Shown one piece after another: positions 5,297-61,131 of a stretch of DNA of 64,000 nucleotides. The notes under the pieces were generated by a model that saw nothing but the letters and a program-made list of their open reading frames with translations, was not told the DNA's origin and searched no databases. Location of the stretch: positions 1 through 64,000 of the forward strand of contig CANGCX010000001.1 in assembly GCA_947452315.1 (NCBI GenBank). The letters run 5' to 3'. This DNA comes from Opitutia bacterium. Lineage in GTDB: Bacteria; Verrucomicrobiota; Verrucomicrobiia; Opitutales; Opitutaceae. The translations under genes were made by a program, and so were the position numbers. Position 1 is the first letter of the stretch. Each line of letters opens with the position of its first letter.

Positions 5297-7531
5297 ATGA
5301 ATGTTAATGCTCGTGCCGAAGGTAAATGGGTGCAGGAATTAGTGGCATTTTTGCGCACACAGCCTGGAGTTAGCGCCGTACGGATTGATCCCGCGGCCCA
5401 GACTGTCGAGGTGGCGACATTGGGTGAGGTAGATTTCGCCGATTTTAGTAAAAAACTTTCGTCCACGATTTCAGCGATTGAGGCTCGCTTGGCATCGCAG
5501 GCACCGATCGTGGCGCCGGCTGGATTTAAACTTACTCATGATGGAGCGCGTCTGGTGGTTGGACGCGAATCATGCTCGACGGCTGAAACGCTTTGGCAGT
5601 GGCGTGAGGTGGATTGGCCAGAAGCAGGCCAGGAAGCCACTGGTCAGCCTGAGTGGAAATTTCTAAGCTTGCTTGCGGTGATCTGTGGCGGCGCGGGCAT
5701 AGCGGGTAGTTTGATGAATCATTTTTATCCGGGTTTACCTTGGTTGGCGTGGGTTTTTTTTGCAGCGGCACTTGTGGCGGGTGCGTGGGATGCCGCCATC
5801 GATACGTGGGCTAACATAAAAAAGGGCGATGTTGATATTCATTTATTGATGCTGATCGTCGCGGCGGGTGCGGTCTCAATCGGCGCGTATAGTGAAGCGG
5901 TGTTACTGTTGTTTCTTTTTTCGGCTTCGGGGGCGATGGAGGCATTTGCTTTGGATCGTACGCAGCGGGAGGTGAGTGCGTTACTCAAATCGGCTCCGAA
6001 GTGGGCGATCGTCGTGACCGCCGAGGGAGGCGAACGTGAAATCGCCGTCGAACAACTCCAAATCGGTCAACGTGTACGCGTGAAGCCGGGCGGCGCGTTT
6101 CCGGCGGATGGCACAATCGTATCTGGCACGAGTGCGAGTGATGAATCCGCACTTACCGGTGAAGCCATGCCGGTAGAAAAGGCCAAGGGGGATCCGGTTT
6201 TCAGCGGCACGATTAATTTGTGGGGCGCAGTTGATTTCGATGTGAATCGGCTGCCAGCGGAAAGTACGTTACAAAAAATCATCCGGCTGATCCAGACCGC
6301 TCAAAAATTAAAAGCACCTAGTGAGCGTTTCACTGATCGGTTTGGCACGGGCTACACGTATGCGGTGTTGGCCGGTGCGACCTTAATGTTTTCAGTTTGG
6401 TGGTTGGGCTATGGGTTGCCTGCATTTACAAATACGGTTGAAACACGCTCGGCTTTTTACCGTGCGATGACCTTGCTCGTGGTGGCTAGCCCCTGCGCAT
6501 TGGTTTTGTCGATTCCATCGGCAATTTTAGCCGCAATTGCCTGGGGCGCGCGGCATGGCGTGTTGTTTCGAGGCGGTGCCGCAATTGAGAAATTAGCTGA
6601 TATTAACGCAGTCGCTTTGGATAAAACGGGTACGTTGACCACTGGCGAACTCGCGGTGGTAGGTTACGAAAGCTTTCCCGCTGGAAGAGAACAGGAAGTG
6701 ATGGAGTTGGCGTATGCACTCGAGGCCAAGTCGGAGCATCCGTTAGCGCGTGCCATTGTGCGAGATGCCCGGGCGCGTGGGGTGCGCGAGCTTAACGTGG
6801 ATGAATTTCGCAATATCGTGGGTGAGGGCGTAAAAGGCAGCCTCAATGGTGTGCAGGTTTTGCTCGGTCGACGAGAGTTGTTGGAGGCTGGACCCTTGGC
6901 GGTTTGGGCTAAGAAATTGCCCCCAGCACCAGCGGAATTAAGTGAGATATGGGTGATCGGTCGTGATATGGTGGGGAGGGTGTTGTTGCGCGATCAGATC
7001 CGTTCCGAATCACGCGCGGTGTTGGCGGAGCTTAAGAAGCAGGGCATTTTTACGGTTATGTTAACTGGGGATCGCCAACATGCAGCTGAGGCGGTCGCTA
7101 AGGAACTGGGTCTAGCCGAAGTTCGCGCAGGTCTGACTCCTGAGGGAAAGGTAGCTGCGATCACCGCATTGCGGAACTCAGGTAAGGTGATCGCTATGGT
7201 TGGCGACGGGGTGAATGATGCGCCCTGTTTGGCTGCGGCCGATGTCGGGGTTGCCATGGGTGCGCGTGGTAGCGATGCCGCCTTAGAGCAGGCGGAGGTG
7301 ATTTTGATGCAGGATAAGATCGAGAATTTCCTGTCGGCTCATCGTTTGAGTCGTCGCGCTCGAACTATCATACGACAAAATCTCACCATTTCTCTGGGTG
7401 TGGTTGTCGTGATGGTGATTGCGACGGTGTTGGGCTTTGTCCCTCTGGCCGTGGGTGTGGCTGCGCATGAAGGCAGCACGGTTGTGGTGTGCTTGAATTC
7501 GTTGCGTTTATTGCTGGGTCGCAATCGGTGA
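5297..7531 (+). CDS. heavy-metal translocating P1B-type ATPase with SPC membrane motif
   Basis: 'VVASPCALVLSIPSA', 'DKTGTLT', 'SEHPLA', 'MVGDGVNDAPCL'. Confidence 0.93.
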   Translation: MNVNARAEGKWVQELVAFLRTQPGVSAVRIDPAAQTVEVATLGEVDFADFSKKLSSTISAIEARLASQAPIVAPAGFKLTHDGARLVVGRESCSTAETLWQWREVDWPEAGQEATGQPEWKFLSLLAVICGGAGIAGSLMNHFYPGLPWLAWVFFAAALVAGAWDAAIDTWANIKKGDVDIHLLMLIVAAGAVSIGAYSEAVLLLFLFSASGAMEAFALDRTQREVSALLKSAPKWAIVVTAEGGEREIAVEQLQIGQRVRVKPGGAFPADGTIVSGTSASDESALTGEAMPVEKAKGDPVFSGTINLWGAVDFDVNRLPAESTLQKIIRLIQTAQKLKAPSERFTDRFGTGYTYAVLAGATLMFSVWWLGYGLPAFTNTVETRSAFYRAMTLLVVASPCALVLSIPSAILAAIAWGARHGVLFRGGAAIEKLADINAVALDKTGTLTTGELAVVGYESFPAGREQEVMELAYALEAKSEHPLARAIVRDARARGVRELNVDEFRNIVGEGVKGSLNGVQVLLGRRELLEAGPLAVWAKKLPPAPAELSEIWVIGRDMVGRVLLRDQIRSESRAVLAELKKQGIFTVMLTGDRQHAAEAVAKELGLAEVRAGLTPEGKVAAITALRNSGKVIAMVGDGVNDAPCLAAADVGVAMGARGSDAALEQAEVILMQDKIENFLSAHRLSRRARTIIRQNLTISLGVVVVMVIATVLGFVPLAVGVAAHEGSTVVVCLNSLRLLLGRNR

Positions 7532-13420: not shown

Positions 13421-14095
13421 ATGCGTCACGTTTTTTTATTTTTAATCTGCCGCGGAGCGTTGCTTGGTCTGGCTCTTCACTTAAATTTGCTACGAGAAAT
13501 CTCTGCGGCCGAGACGCCCTTGCCGAGCTTGAGCATGGACGAAGCCATTGCGCGCGGCACGACTGATGACCTTGAGCGTTTACTTGCGGCAGATAACACT
13601 GCGATCAATCGCGTGGGCTCTGCTAAATTAACGCCATTGCAGCAGTCTATTCTCCGCCGAAAGACCGCGGCGGCTATGCTGCTCATCGCGCGCGGTGCGG
13701 ATGTTAACCTAGCCGATCCTTCAGGACGCACGCCGTTGCATCTCGCCGTAGAACGCAACGACGCCACGGTGTTAGCCGCATTGCTGGAACGGAAGGCCGA
13801 TCCGGTGCGACGCGATCGAGTAGGCTGGACGCCGCTGCATCACGCTGCGGCAAAAAACCTTCTGCCCTTAGCCAAAATTTTGCTCGATCATGGTATGCCA
13901 CCCAACGCGTTGAGTGAACTCGGTGGCACGGCCTTGCACGAAGCGGCCGCCGGGGCGGGCGCCGATATGGTGCGGTTGCTTCTTCTGCGTGGGACAGATC
14001 CCAAAGTGCGGTCAAAGCAAGGCGTGACGGCGCTAGATCTGGCACTCGAGTTTAAAAACGCTGCTGCAATCGCGATCCTTGAAGCGTTGCCCTGA
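13421..14095 (+). CDS. secreted ankyrin-repeat protein
   Basis: N-terminal signal-like segment; repeats 'GRTPLHLAVERND', 'GWTPLHHAAAKNLLPLAKILLDHG', 'GGTALHEAAAGAGADMVRLLL'. Confidence 0.88.
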   Translation: MRHVFLFLICRGALLGLALHLNLLREISAAETPLPSLSMDEAIARGTTDDLERLLAADNTAINRVGSAKLTPLQQSILRRKTAAAMLLIARGADVNLADPSGRTPLHLAVERNDATVLAALLERKADPVRRDRVGWTPLHHAAAKNLLPLAKILLDHGMPPNALSELGGTALHEAAAGAGADMVRLLLLRGTDPKVRSKQGVTALDLALEFKNAAAIAILEALP

Positions 14096-14209
14096 GGATC
14101 AAGGCTCAGAACTGTGCGTAGGAATTATTTAAGGAGCGACTCGCAAAAGCTAAAGTGAAGTTTTTTGCGCTTGGGCTAAAAATCAAGGAGGGCGTCGCTT
14201 AATCCCGGC

Positions 14210-14249
14210 CCTAGAGGACCGGGTTTTCGCGCCGTCCAATGGGATAAAT
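14210..14249 (+). repeat. intergenic repeat element, copy A
   Basis: CCTAGAGGACCGGGTTTTCGCGCCGTCCAATGGGATAAAT; 33/40 identical, ungapped, to 60983-61022. Confidence 0.7.
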
Positions 14250-14303
14250 AAAACGTAGGCGACTCATAGCAGATTGAATGAAAAGTATATGGCAACTTAC
14301 GGG

Positions 14304-14340
14304 CAAAAAAAGGGAGCCGCCGAATGGGCGACTCCCTTGA
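14304..14340 (-). terminator. intrinsic terminator for the 14362-14733 gene
   Basis: Minus strand: AAGGGAGtCGCC-CATTC-GGCGgCTCCCTTTTTTT. Confidence 0.8.
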
Positions 14341-14361
14341 TCCAAAACGTGTATCTAGAAA

Positions 14362-14733
14362 TCAGTTCGTGATATCGAACGTCGTGCTTTCTTTGCGGAT
14401 CGTTAGGTAAGTTTTATACCACTCTTTCTGCGCAGGGCTGTCGGTGTAGGCTTTGAGGGCCGCCTCGTCGGCAAACTCCATAACGATGGCGTTATTTTTC
14501 CCGCCTTGGACTTTGATAGACTTCACCCATACGCGCGTGATGCCTTTGTATTTGGCTGGCAGAGCGACCGCGCCGTCGAGGGCGGCTTTGATTTGTTCAG
14601 GAGTGGTGCCGTCTTTCCATGCGACGGTCACGACATGAATCACGGATTTCGGAGCCGTGTCGGCGGCGGAGGCGGAGGAAACACCAAAGGCCAATAGGCC
14701 AACAGTGAGAAGAGCTAGGGCGATTTTTTTCAT
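14362..14733 (-). CDS. secreted Dabb (stress-responsive A/B barrel) domain protein
   Basis: Signal peptide 'MKKIALALLTVGLLAFGVSSASA' then 'SVIHVVTVAWKDGTTPEQIKAALDGAVAL'. Confidence 0.8.
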   Translation of the reverse strand: MKKIALALLTVGLLAFGVSSASAADTAPKSVIHVVTVAWKDGTTPEQIKAALDGAVALPAKYKGITRVWVKSIKVQGGKNNAIVMEFADEAALKAYTDSPAQKEWYKTYLTIRKESTTFDITN

Positions 14734-57951: not shown

Positions 57952-60786
57952 TTAGAACTGGGTTTTGAGTCCAACCCGGAACATGCGGCCGACTTGGTCA
58001 TAGAGACCGACATCGGTTGGGAGCGGGGTGGCGCCGCCGGATTTGGGCGCGTAAACTAGGCCTTTATCTAGGACGTTTTGCACATTGAGATAAATTTCTA
58101 GGTCTTTGCGACCAAGGCGTAATTTGTAACCGACTTGAGCATCGACGTAGTTGGCGGATGTTACGTCGTTAAAATCGGTGGTTACACCGAGGATGCGGGT
58201 CTTGTCCCAAGTCATTGCACCGATGTAGCGATTTTGCACAAATGCAGTGTAACGGTCGCGAGAGTAATTAACTGATAAAGTGCCGCGCACGCGAGGAAGT
58301 GCGGTGGTACCGGAGGTGGCGTTGGCAGTAGCATTGCCCGCTTGGTTCAACATAGTGACGAGCGGGGAAATTTGGGTGTATTCGTCGACATAGCCGCCCA
58401 ATGCACGGACAGTGAGATTGCCTGGCCTAGACCCGCGGAACCAAGACGAAAGCGGAATGCGGTAGCTAGCTTCGACATCAGTGCCGCGGTAAAACTCTGA
58501 GTTCAAGTTAACCGGGGAGGTCTGCGTGCGGATTACCGCGCGAGGGTCGGCATTTGTGGATCCACGCGTGACGAAGGCACATAGCGGAGACGCGGGATTT
58601 AAATCGCATTCGCGTACCGCGTTGGCACCACCGGCGTTGAAGATAGCGTCGTCGATTTTAATAGTATAAAAATCAACCGCGAGGTTGAAGCCTGTAAGCC
58701 AGGATGGTTGGTAGACAAAACCCACTACGGTAGAATTTGCGGTCTCGGGTTTCAGATCGCGGTTGCCCATGGCGATATTGGGCACGCCAGAGTAGGTCTT
58801 GCCCGTGCCGCCAGGAAAGTTGTCGTTAATTACGCCGTTAGTCTGGACGCCAGCCGAGAATAATTCGTTGAGGTTGGGGGCGCGGATGTCGTGAGAGCGG
58901 GAGCCACGGAAGCGAAAATCAGAGGAAATTTGCCATACTAGACCGGCTTTCCAAGTGTTGGCATCGCCACTGGTCGAGTAGTGCGTGCTGCGGCCAGCTA
59001 GGGTCGCTGTTACGCGTTTGGCTAGGAAGAGATCTTTGACGATTGGAATTTGAGTCTCGACGAATTTTTCCAAGATTTTGTAGCCGCCACTGAATGGCTG
59101 AGTGTTGGCAAGGCGGTAGGCGCCAGCGGCTGACATAGCGTTGGGCGTGGTGGTAGATGTTAGGTCGCGCCATTGCAGACCCGTAGCCACGGATACGGCG
59201 CCGGCAGGGAGCTTGAAAAGGTCGCCGGTAAGGTTGGTGTCGGCGACATTTTGAACCGTGTAGTTGTCGTATTCGGAGCGACCCATCACGAAATCAAGCG
59301 CGGCTTTGGAGGGAGCGCCTGTGCCGAAAGGATTGAAGGGGGCGCATGCGGGGTTCGTCGAGGCGCTAGCGCATATGATCTGACCGTTGACCAAAATGGC
59401 GTCAGCGGCGGCGGTCATGTTGGCGGTGATGAGATTATTGGTGACTGGAATGCGTAGATCGTTGCTACCCCACTGATAGGAGGTTTCCCATGACCAATCG
59501 CCGATTTTGGCGATAATGCCTGCGAGGCCGCGGAGATTTTGGTCGTTGATGTGTGACTCGGTTAGCCCGCGCTCAAGGGTGAGCCGGTTCATGGTGAGTG
59601 ACGTCACTCCCAATGTGTTCATCTGCGCGAGGAGTGTCGGAGCGAACTGCGCGAGATAGGCGTTGTTGTTTTTGATAGTAAGGGTGTGCGTGGTGGGACT
59701 GTTTTGCACGTCCATCTGCGATTCACCGTAGGATCCTTCAAGAAAGAAGGTTACTTTATCAGTTAACTTGTAATCCGAGCGGGCAAACATGGCTTTGCGG
59801 GTGAGCGGACGTACAATTTCTTGCGACGTACCGACGCGGAAACCGTCGCCGCCATTTTGGAATCCCCCGGTGGTCCCTATGGTTGTGGAAATCGTGCCAT
59901 AGTTATAGGGCTGTTGAACGCCGCCGGGGCCGAACATGATGCCGCGGATCAAAGCGTTGTTAGCGGTTGTGCCGCCCACACCTGTGACAATAAGCCCGCC
60001 CGGGGTATAGGGGGTGCGAATGTCATTCGCGCGGACTACTTTTGAAGTGTTGGTGGGGTCGGGAATTTGGTTAGGCTCGCTAGTGCGGGTGGATCGGCCA
60101 TCACCGTTAACACCTTCATTGACGAGATACTCGGCGCCGAAAATGAAGTGACCGCGCGAGCCCAGATAATCGGTGCCGTAGCTTAATAAGGTTTTGTATT
60201 CCTTATTATCTCCGGCTTCGGCGACCCCGTAGACAAAGTCGGCTTTTACGCCGGTAAATTCTTTGTTAAGCACAAAATTAATTACACCGCCGACTGCATC
60301 GGAACCGTAGGCGGCTGAGGCGCCGCCATTGACGATATCCACATGGTCTACCAAGCCTTGCGGTATCAGGTTGGCGTCGACTTGTCCCGTCGGGCCGCTA
60401 GGCGTGTAGCGACGACCATCGAGCAACGTGAGGGTACGAGTAACACCAAGTCCGCGCAAATTGAGGAAGTTGGCACTGTTATTGCCGGTACCACCGCCGA
60501 CCGTTTGCCCACCACCCGGGGCGATTGCAGGCAATTGTTTGAGACCGTCAGCCATATTTGCAGGCGCTGCGGCGATAAGATTGATGCTATCCAAAACCAA
60601 GACAGGAGCGGGTGCCGTGAACGTACTCGCACTGGCGATGTGCGTACCTGAGACGCTAAAACTCTCAAGTTTCACGATCTCATTTGATGTGTCGCTTGGG
60701 CGATTTGTCGTGGGTGCGGTTTGAGCCCGCGCGTTAAGTATAGTGAGCAGTGCACTAAGCACCACCATGGGAGTTTTTCGCGTCAT
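57952..60786 (-). CDS. TonB-dependent receptor (ORF opens at 60963; start MTRKTPMVVLSALLTILNARAQ at 60786 preferred)
   Basis: Plug 'NFLNLRGLGVTRTLTLLDGRRYTPSGPTGQVDANLIPQGLVDHVDIVNGGASAAYGSDAVGGVINFVL', C-terminal 'RMFRVGLKTQF'. Confidence 0.94.
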   Translation of the reverse strand: MTRKTPMVVLSALLTILNARAQTAPTTNRPSDTSNEIVKLESFSVSGTHIASASTFTAPAPVLVLDSINLIAAAPANMADGLKQLPAIAPGGGQTVGGGTGNNSANFLNLRGLGVTRTLTLLDGRRYTPSGPTGQVDANLIPQGLVDHVDIVNGGASAAYGSDAVGGVINFVLNKEFTGVKADFVYGVAEAGDNKEYKTLLSYGTDYLGSRGHFIFGAEYLVNEGVNGDGRSTRTSEPNQIPDPTNTSKVVRANDIRTPYTPGGLIVTGVGGTTANNALIRGIMFGPGGVQQPYNYGTISTTIGTTGGFQNGGDGFRVGTSQEIVRPLTRKAMFARSDYKLTDKVTFFLEGSYGESQMDVQNSPTTHTLTIKNNNAYLAQFAPTLLAQMNTLGVTSLTMNRLTLERGLTESHINDQNLRGLAGIIAKIGDWSWETSYQWGSNDLRIPVTNNLITANMTAAADAILVNGQIICASASTNPACAPFNPFGTGAPSKAALDFVMGRSEYDNYTVQNVADTNLTGDLFKLPAGAVSVATGLQWRDLTSTTTPNAMSAAGAYRLANTQPFSGGYKILEKFVETQIPIVKDLFLAKRVTATLAGRSTHYSTSGDANTWKAGLVWQISSDFRFRGSRSHDIRAPNLNELFSAGVQTNGVINDNFPGGTGKTYSGVPNIAMGNRDLKPETANSTVVGFVYQPSWLTGFNLAVDFYTIKIDDAIFNAGGANAVRECDLNPASPLCAFVTRGSTNADPRAVIRTQTSPVNLNSEFYRGTDVEASYRIPLSSWFRGSRPGNLTVRALGGYVDEYTQISPLVTMLNQAGNATANATSGTTALPRVRGTLSVNYSRDRYTAFVQNRYIGAMTWDKTRILGVTTDFNDVTSANYVDAQVGYKLRLGRKDLEIYLNVQNVLDKGLVYAPKSGGATPLPTDVGLYDQVGRMFRVGLKTQF

Positions 60787-60982
60787 AGTTTTGGTGAATC
60801 GGATCGTTGAAATGACCCTCGAGGGTATGTCTATAATTCCACTTAAGTCGTGGGGTAGTTTACTGGCGGCATAATACATATCGATCATGTCAACTGGAGG
60901 CTCCTTATCGAGGATTAATCTGGTGTTAGTTCGAATTTGCGAGAGGACCACGAAGATAGACAATAGTTGACCCTCTACCGTG

Positions 60983-61022
60983 CCTAAAGGACCGGGTTTT
61001 CGTGCAGCCTACTGAGATAAAT
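60983..61022 (+). repeat. intergenic repeat element, copy B
   Basis: CCTAAAGGACCGGGTTTTCGTGCAGCCTACTGAGATAAAT; 33/40 identical to copy A at 14210-14249. Confidence 0.7.
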
Positions 61023-61043
61023 GTCGAGTGACACTTATCCCAG
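61012..61043 (-). repeat. inverted repeat overlapping repeat copy B
   Basis: CTGAGATAAATGTC-GAGT-GACACTTATCCCAG; 14-bp arms, fully paired as minus-strand RNA with two G.U pairs. Confidence 0.65.
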
Positions 61044-61066
61044 GTATACGTCATTAATTTTATTTG

Positions 61067-61108
61067 ATACAAAAAACCCGCGGTGCATTCGATTGCATCC
61101 GCGGGTTG
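61067..61108 (-). terminator. intrinsic terminator of typA
   Basis: AACCCGCGG...CCGCGGGTT stem, minus strand followed by TTTTTT. Confidence 0.88.
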
Positions 61109-61131
61109 AGGGATTTAGTTTTTGGCTAAAA

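Follow-up and report, generated by a model that had tools for sequence, protein, structure and literature searches.

A hairpin-bearing intergenic repeat in an Opitutaceae genome is almost certainly the left end of a tnpB-carrying IS200/IS605-type element

A 64,000-nucleotide stretch of an Opitutia bacterium contig (family Opitutaceae; CANGCX010000001.1, positions 1 to 64,000; hereafter the window) carries an intergenic hairpin at 14188-14263 with a diverged second copy 46 kb away. A sequence-only reading took the pair for either a dispersed REP- or MITE-like repeat or a small structured RNA family. What are these two copies, and what placed them where they lie? We conclude that the first (copy A) is almost certainly a stub of an IS200/IS605-type element that carried tnpB, namely its left end (LE), and the second (copy B) a decayed, ends-only derivative. 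This explanation draws on observed homology, linkage to tnpB and tnpA, the target, guide-target covariation, empty sites and ends-only copies.

All strings reported for the two copies are exact at their positions, and 14210-14249 matches 60983-61022 at 33 of 40 positions without gaps, including the exact run AGGACCGGGTTTTCG. We searched the 2.77-Mb genome by blastn with 14180-14280 and recovered copy B (E = 6.8e-5) together with further copies on contigs C91 (1e-20), C53 and C36 (both 7e-18), C46 (1.5e-16), C103 (9e-10) and C168 (2e-5). These E-values across the genome show that A and B are no chance pair. The search for further copies, which the sequence-only reading had proposed as a check, thus yielded five more in the same genome at 1e-20 to 1e-9, and same-genus genomes hold many others, with homology reaching ~130 nt. 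In copy A this homology continues to at least 14119 (~130 nt, 84-89% identity), an extent that the first reading missed. The copies share one sharp edge, GATAAA on the plus strand, beyond which their flanks are unrelated, and on the opposite side they run into a gene. Weak matches in the same genome (L009-L011, L013, L015; E > 0.8) were discarded as chance, and two other loci (L012, L014) are right ends. One ~1.86-kb segment with an LE copy (L002/L029; G000:C91 in this genome, G143:C56 in a relative) is 98.8% identical between the two genomes, against 80-88% at other shared loci, possibly through recent transfer or cross-binning.

The gene into which the repeat runs identifies it. In same-genus genomes the repeat is found immediately 5' of the start codon (ATG) of a TnpB ORF; on G143:C54, for example, the gene starts ~137 nt from the repeat edge and encodes MATILKAFRFALEPTQAQ..., a TnpB N-terminus (HTH_OrfB_IS605, E = 1.8e-13). 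At the ends of other contigs we found C-terminal halves of TnpB, which bear the OrfB_IS605 and Cas12f1-like TNB domains, with ...GGGAATCCCGGCCCTTCAGGGCCGGGAGGAGGTCAA coming after them. The same LE is also found directly 3' of a divergent Y1 tnpA (G018:C36, G143:C88, G000:C168, G024:C45 and a palsa Opitutaceae MAG); the adjoining genes match PF01797 in G018, G143, G024 and the palsa MAG, and a partial one does so at G000:C168, which holds only part of tnpA. A contig of the palsa MAG carries the complete layout of LE, tnpA (147 aa), tnpB (414 aa) and right end (RE), the last terminating GGAAT-CCCGGCCCTTTAGGGCCGGG-AGGATG-TCAA. Both this genome and sister genomes contain RE copies together with TnpB C-termini, and the matching right ends have the guide GAAT, a hairpin almost identical to that of the LE and a terminal TCAA. 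From the adjacency to tnpB and tnpA and the palsa layout, we identify the repeat as an IS200/IS605 LE on the minus strand. Copy A itself has no linked Y1 HUH transposase, and its tnpB is deleted. In the assembly of its genome (84% complete) contigs break inside the repeats, and we found neither an intact A-type tnpB nor an intact tnpA with an A-type LE. Two apparently complete, divergent tnpA/tnpB elements are present in the genome (G000:C4:61634-63430 and G000:C48:5750-7540; L070, L071); both belong to a cousin type with TTGAT as target, and G143 has a close relative of the C4 element at another position.

This linkage also bears on the REP reading, in which palindromes are moved by a domesticated TnpA-REP of a REP/RAYT system. 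The repeat is intergenic, dispersed and hairpin-bearing, an HUH enzyme is involved, and the 50-nt single-hairpin copies described below are REP-like in size. However, no GTAG or CGTC tag stands by the palindrome, whose conserved 5' foot is CGAAAA, and the sequence runs into tnpB and abuts an IS200-type tnpA. Moreover, the LE differs from the RE, the element carries TnpB and copies are few. With IS200-type Y1_Tnp and TnpB as the cognate genes, we regard a REP origin as very unlikely. The proposal of a dispersed, MITE-like repeat was right in spirit, since these are IS200/IS605 ends and their ends-only derivatives, but its REP part fails.

Copy A can be followed with certainty from 14243 down to 14119 and probably to about 14093, giving an LE at 14093..14243 on the minus strand with 84-89% identity over ~130 nt to LEs 5' of tnpB in G143 and G018. 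Near 14093, TGAGGATC matches the first tnpB codons and lies at the deletion junction, at the stop of the ankyrin gene. Written in element orientation, with a slash at the insertion point, the sequence is TTTAT/CCCATT-GGACGGCGC-G-AAAA-CCCGGTCC-TCTA-GGGCCGGG-ATTAA-GCGACGCCC.... The subterminal hairpin CCCGGTCC-TCTA-GGGCCGGG (14204..14223, minus strand) is the stem-loop first reported as CCCGGCCC-TAGA-GGACCGGG, and it is real: 95% of cells are paired over 15 LEs, and its DNA fold has z -2.3. The two enclosing pairs proposed around it did not hold. GTCGC/GCGAC is spurious, because GCGAC at 14259-14263 belongs to codons of a disrupted host gene, beyond the element; the letters of ATCCC/GGGAT are present, but they join the hairpin foot to the element tip and target and form no structure. 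An enclosing helix does exist, formed by GGACGGCGC (5' arm, 14229..14237, minus strand) and GCGACGCCC (3' arm, 14190..14198, minus strand), and 5 of its 8 pairs have changed on both sides. Across the 15 aligned LEs the two-tier stem is kept (94.1% of cells paired), with 6 pairs changed on both sides, where shuffles gave 1.9 and slid controls 0-1.

Covariation of this kind is what a structured non-coding RNA family or a cis-regulatory RNA would show; copy A does lie 3' of the ankyrin gene, and IS605 stem-loops can persist as RNA elements at gene 3' ends in Borrelia (PMC2775950). A hairpin that works as single-stranded DNA predicts the covariation equally well, however. Rfam gave no match in the whole window at the gathering cut-off and, when relaxed, only weak, chance-level ones. 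Both strands of A and B, folded as RNA, gave z -0.7 to -1.2 (about -1 for A), except for the minus strand of B (-2.6), where the value is due to a flank palindrome mostly outside the element, and a promoter and terminator pattern scan did not call the A hairpin. The copies also stand in unrelated contexts beside TTAT, with empty sites in relatives. We therefore consider an RNA very improbable; the linkage, target-site and empty-site evidence argues instead for the single-stranded DNA substrate of a transposase.

Immediately 5' of the hairpin in copy A is a putative left guide, AAAA (14224..14227, minus strand), in the position of the IS608 left guide G_L (PMC5934647). Over ~27 ends, the target TTAT occurs with the guide AAAA (about 22 loci) and TTAC with AAAG (5 loci: L043, L053, L058, L007 and L026), with a single AGAA guide variant in G131. 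This pairing shows that guide and target change together. In IS608 the left guide AAAG goes with the target TTAC, and at the right end GAAT is the guide and TCAA the cleavage site (PMC5934647); the right end of the Opitutaceae element has exactly this GAAT and TCAA.

The insertion site of copy A can be read from relatives. In G018 and G088 an MBL-fold hydrolase gene fills the interval between the ankyrin gene and a Dabb gene. In G018 it is intact in the same place (298 aa; Lactamase_B_2, E = 5.9e-35; start ATGAGTCGCCTGCGCTTCATTTAT/AATATG), and the empty site in relatives reads ATG...ATT TAT/AAT. The window instead reads ATGAGTCGCCTACGTTTTATTTAT/CCCATTGGACGG...: the first 8 codons of this gene (ATG AGT CGC CTA CGT TTT ATT TAT; 14244..14267, minus strand) are followed exactly by the LE. 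Comparison of the two junctions shows that the element entered exactly 3' of TTTAT (14244-14248, minus strand), in MBL codons 7-8. The 4-5-nt target is kept at the LE and not duplicated, as seen at the TTTAT junction and at empty sites. In G088 the corresponding site is TTTTT, not TTTAT, which we counted against this assignment. In the window tnpB, the right end and the remaining MBL gene are all missing, and a search of the whole window for the RE motif found none beyond chance. Copy A thus lacks a nearby right end and is immobile by itself, and with its right end gone it cannot alone show both ends. The deletion may have used the TGAGGATC microhomology.

The MBL-fold gene beside the ankyrin gene (window 14095-14362; L136-L140) carries different transposons in different genomes. 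In G143 it holds a TTGAT-type tnpA/tnpB element with a partial deletion; we considered this locus as the parent of copy A and rejected it, because it is a different IS in the same gene. In G155 the gene is present and interrupted elsewhere, apparently by a third element; the contigs break there, with a possible 7-bp duplication, CCGTGCC, on either side of the breaks.

Copy B (TTTATCTCAGTAGGCTGCACGAAAACCCGGTCCTTTAGGCACGGTAGAGGGTCAA; 60967..61016, minus strand) has another format, in which 50 nt of LE, hairpin and RE ending GTCAA adjoin the target TTTAT at the left edge (61017..61021, minus strand), making a 55-nt unit. Its ends are fused around a near-terminal palindrome, and it has neither a transposase gene nor inverted repeats. 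Five copies of the same format, at G000:C103, G018:C72, G018:C6, G143:C7 and G143:C49, have equal length and ends and match copy B at 41-46 of 55 positions (target included); reversed-pattern controls gave none, and additional ends-only copies bring the number in sister genomes to about a dozen. Copy B is the best match to the 55-nt unit in the window (47/55), followed by copy A (46/55). The sequence-only reading would have given up its proposal had conservation been no better than in shuffled sequence; the maximum in 100 dinucleotide shuffles was 37, compared with the 47 columns of copy B. The right-end 20-mer of copy B alone has a random probability of 6e-5. Its hairpin has decayed in the 3' arm (DNA fold z +1.35). 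A and B are therefore homologous, as first proposed, but they differ in kind, A being a truncated LE and B a fusion of LE and RE.

Point changes apart, the ends-only copies have an LE-type loop and then an RE tail, as expected if a deletion ran between the two copies of AGGGCCGGGA that the hairpins share as a direct repeat. Orthologous sites are empty, not full-length, for the minis at G143:C49 (four relatives), G000:C103 (one) and G018:C1 (two), and the interval flanking copy B is rearranged. Copy B could have arisen either by deletion of the core between the direct repeats formed by the near-identical LE and RE hairpins or by mobilisation of the 50-nt unit itself. More tentatively, copy B, the mini at G000:C103 and the dozen or so in sister genomes, each 50 nt with a single hairpin, might be more than deletion scars: they might be self-contained IS200/IS605-type units of the smallest size, still moved in trans, in which one hairpin and guide serve cleavage both on the left (TTAT) and on the right (TCAA); we see this as a possibility rather than an expectation. 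A classical MITE, with terminal inverted repeats and target duplication, would likewise be small, dispersed and non-coding, and internally deleted derivatives are known here (L005, L031). The ends, however, have no inverted repeats, the LE and RE hairpins being direct repeats, and the empty sites of G143:C49 show no target duplication. This reading has next to no probability, and it was dropped with the REP reading after the junction and tag tests.

The surroundings of these small copies vary. G018 and G143 (L141, L143) have, by eye, an apparent FecI-like sigma factor and FecR-like gene between typA and a TonB-dependent receptor gene; both are missing in the window (60786-61131) and in G151, and it is in this shortened stretch that copy B lies. 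In G018 the same interval contains a separate ends-only copy in opposite orientation. A long palindrome at 61008-61040, CTGGGATAAGTGTC/GACATTTATCTCAG, joins the left flank of copy B to the element tip; the minus strand folds there with z -2.57, and the palindrome may be an older tip in inverted orientation or simply chance. Around the C103 mini (L006/L159-L162; G000:C103 about 5640-5990), length and content differ between genomes: one relative shares the region throughout and two lack a roughly 330-bp block, which suggests a further indel beside it.

For the IS200/IS605 stub and its derivative, we infer the transposase chemistry, the supply in trans, the order of deletions and the present state as follows. 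The element would have inserted on the minus strand 3' of TTTAT in codons 7-8 of the MBL-fold hydrolase gene, between the ankyrin-repeat and Dabb-domain genes. As in IS608 and ISDra2, TnpA supplied in trans would bind the LE and RE hairpins folded from single-stranded DNA; the guide AAAA would pair with the TTAT target, and the single-stranded circle would insert 3' of it with no duplication. TnpB would guard the donor site, using a guide RNA derived from the right end. A later deletion would have removed tnpB, the RE and all that followed of the MBL gene, so that of the element only an LE stub remained, immobile by itself. Both copies are most likely inert today, since A lacks an RE and B has lost the 3' arm of its hairpin.

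These features are of kinds already described. As in IS608 and ISDra2, insertion occurs 3' of a short target retained at the LE (TTAC and TTGAT, respectively), a 4-nt guide lies 5' of each subterminal hairpin, and tnpA and tnpB are carried (PMC5934647, PMC8612924). In contrast to these, the target here is TTTAT with left guide AAAA, tnpA and tnpB are divergent or tnpB stands alone, a perfect inner stem is joined by an outer helix, and copy A retains the LE only. Solo-tnpB elements of the archaeon Sulfolobus islandicus likewise have tnpB without tnpA and 5'-TTTAT at the left end (PMC10640517), a likeness drawn from description, not from alignment of the ends. In Haloquadratum, the 1500-bp tnpB element ISHwa23 is reduced to a 52-bp terminal-only PATE (PMC3119063), nearly identical to the minis in size and layout, with both ends fused over one shared palindrome; here the host is a bacterium of the Opitutaceae, and at no orthologous site did we see a mini at full length. 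A PATE-like, ends-only IS605 derivative of Halanaerobium is alike in kind, but has 271 nt with the tnpB 3' end and a full RE (PMC7290912). Free-standing IS605 stem-loops on Borrelia plasmids also persist as end hairpins without transposase, some at gene 3' ends, and are proposed to be conserved as RNA (PMC2775950), a role that seems improbable for copy A. All features thus fit IS200/IS605 ends, tnpB-only TTTAT elements and ends-only PATEs. New here are the member itself, the variant of target and guide that it uses and where it occurs within this Opitutaceae genus; our literature search found no paper on TnpB elements of Opitutaceae.

Our analysis turns an unexplained intergenic candidate for a structured RNA into an identified transposon end. 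Solo LE stubs and ends-only hairpins are easy false positives in searches for RNA motifs and REPs. The analysis names TTTAT as the target for an Opitutaceae TnpB lineage, by inference the likely TAM of the A-type TnpB, and gives a natural example of a guide and its target that change in step.
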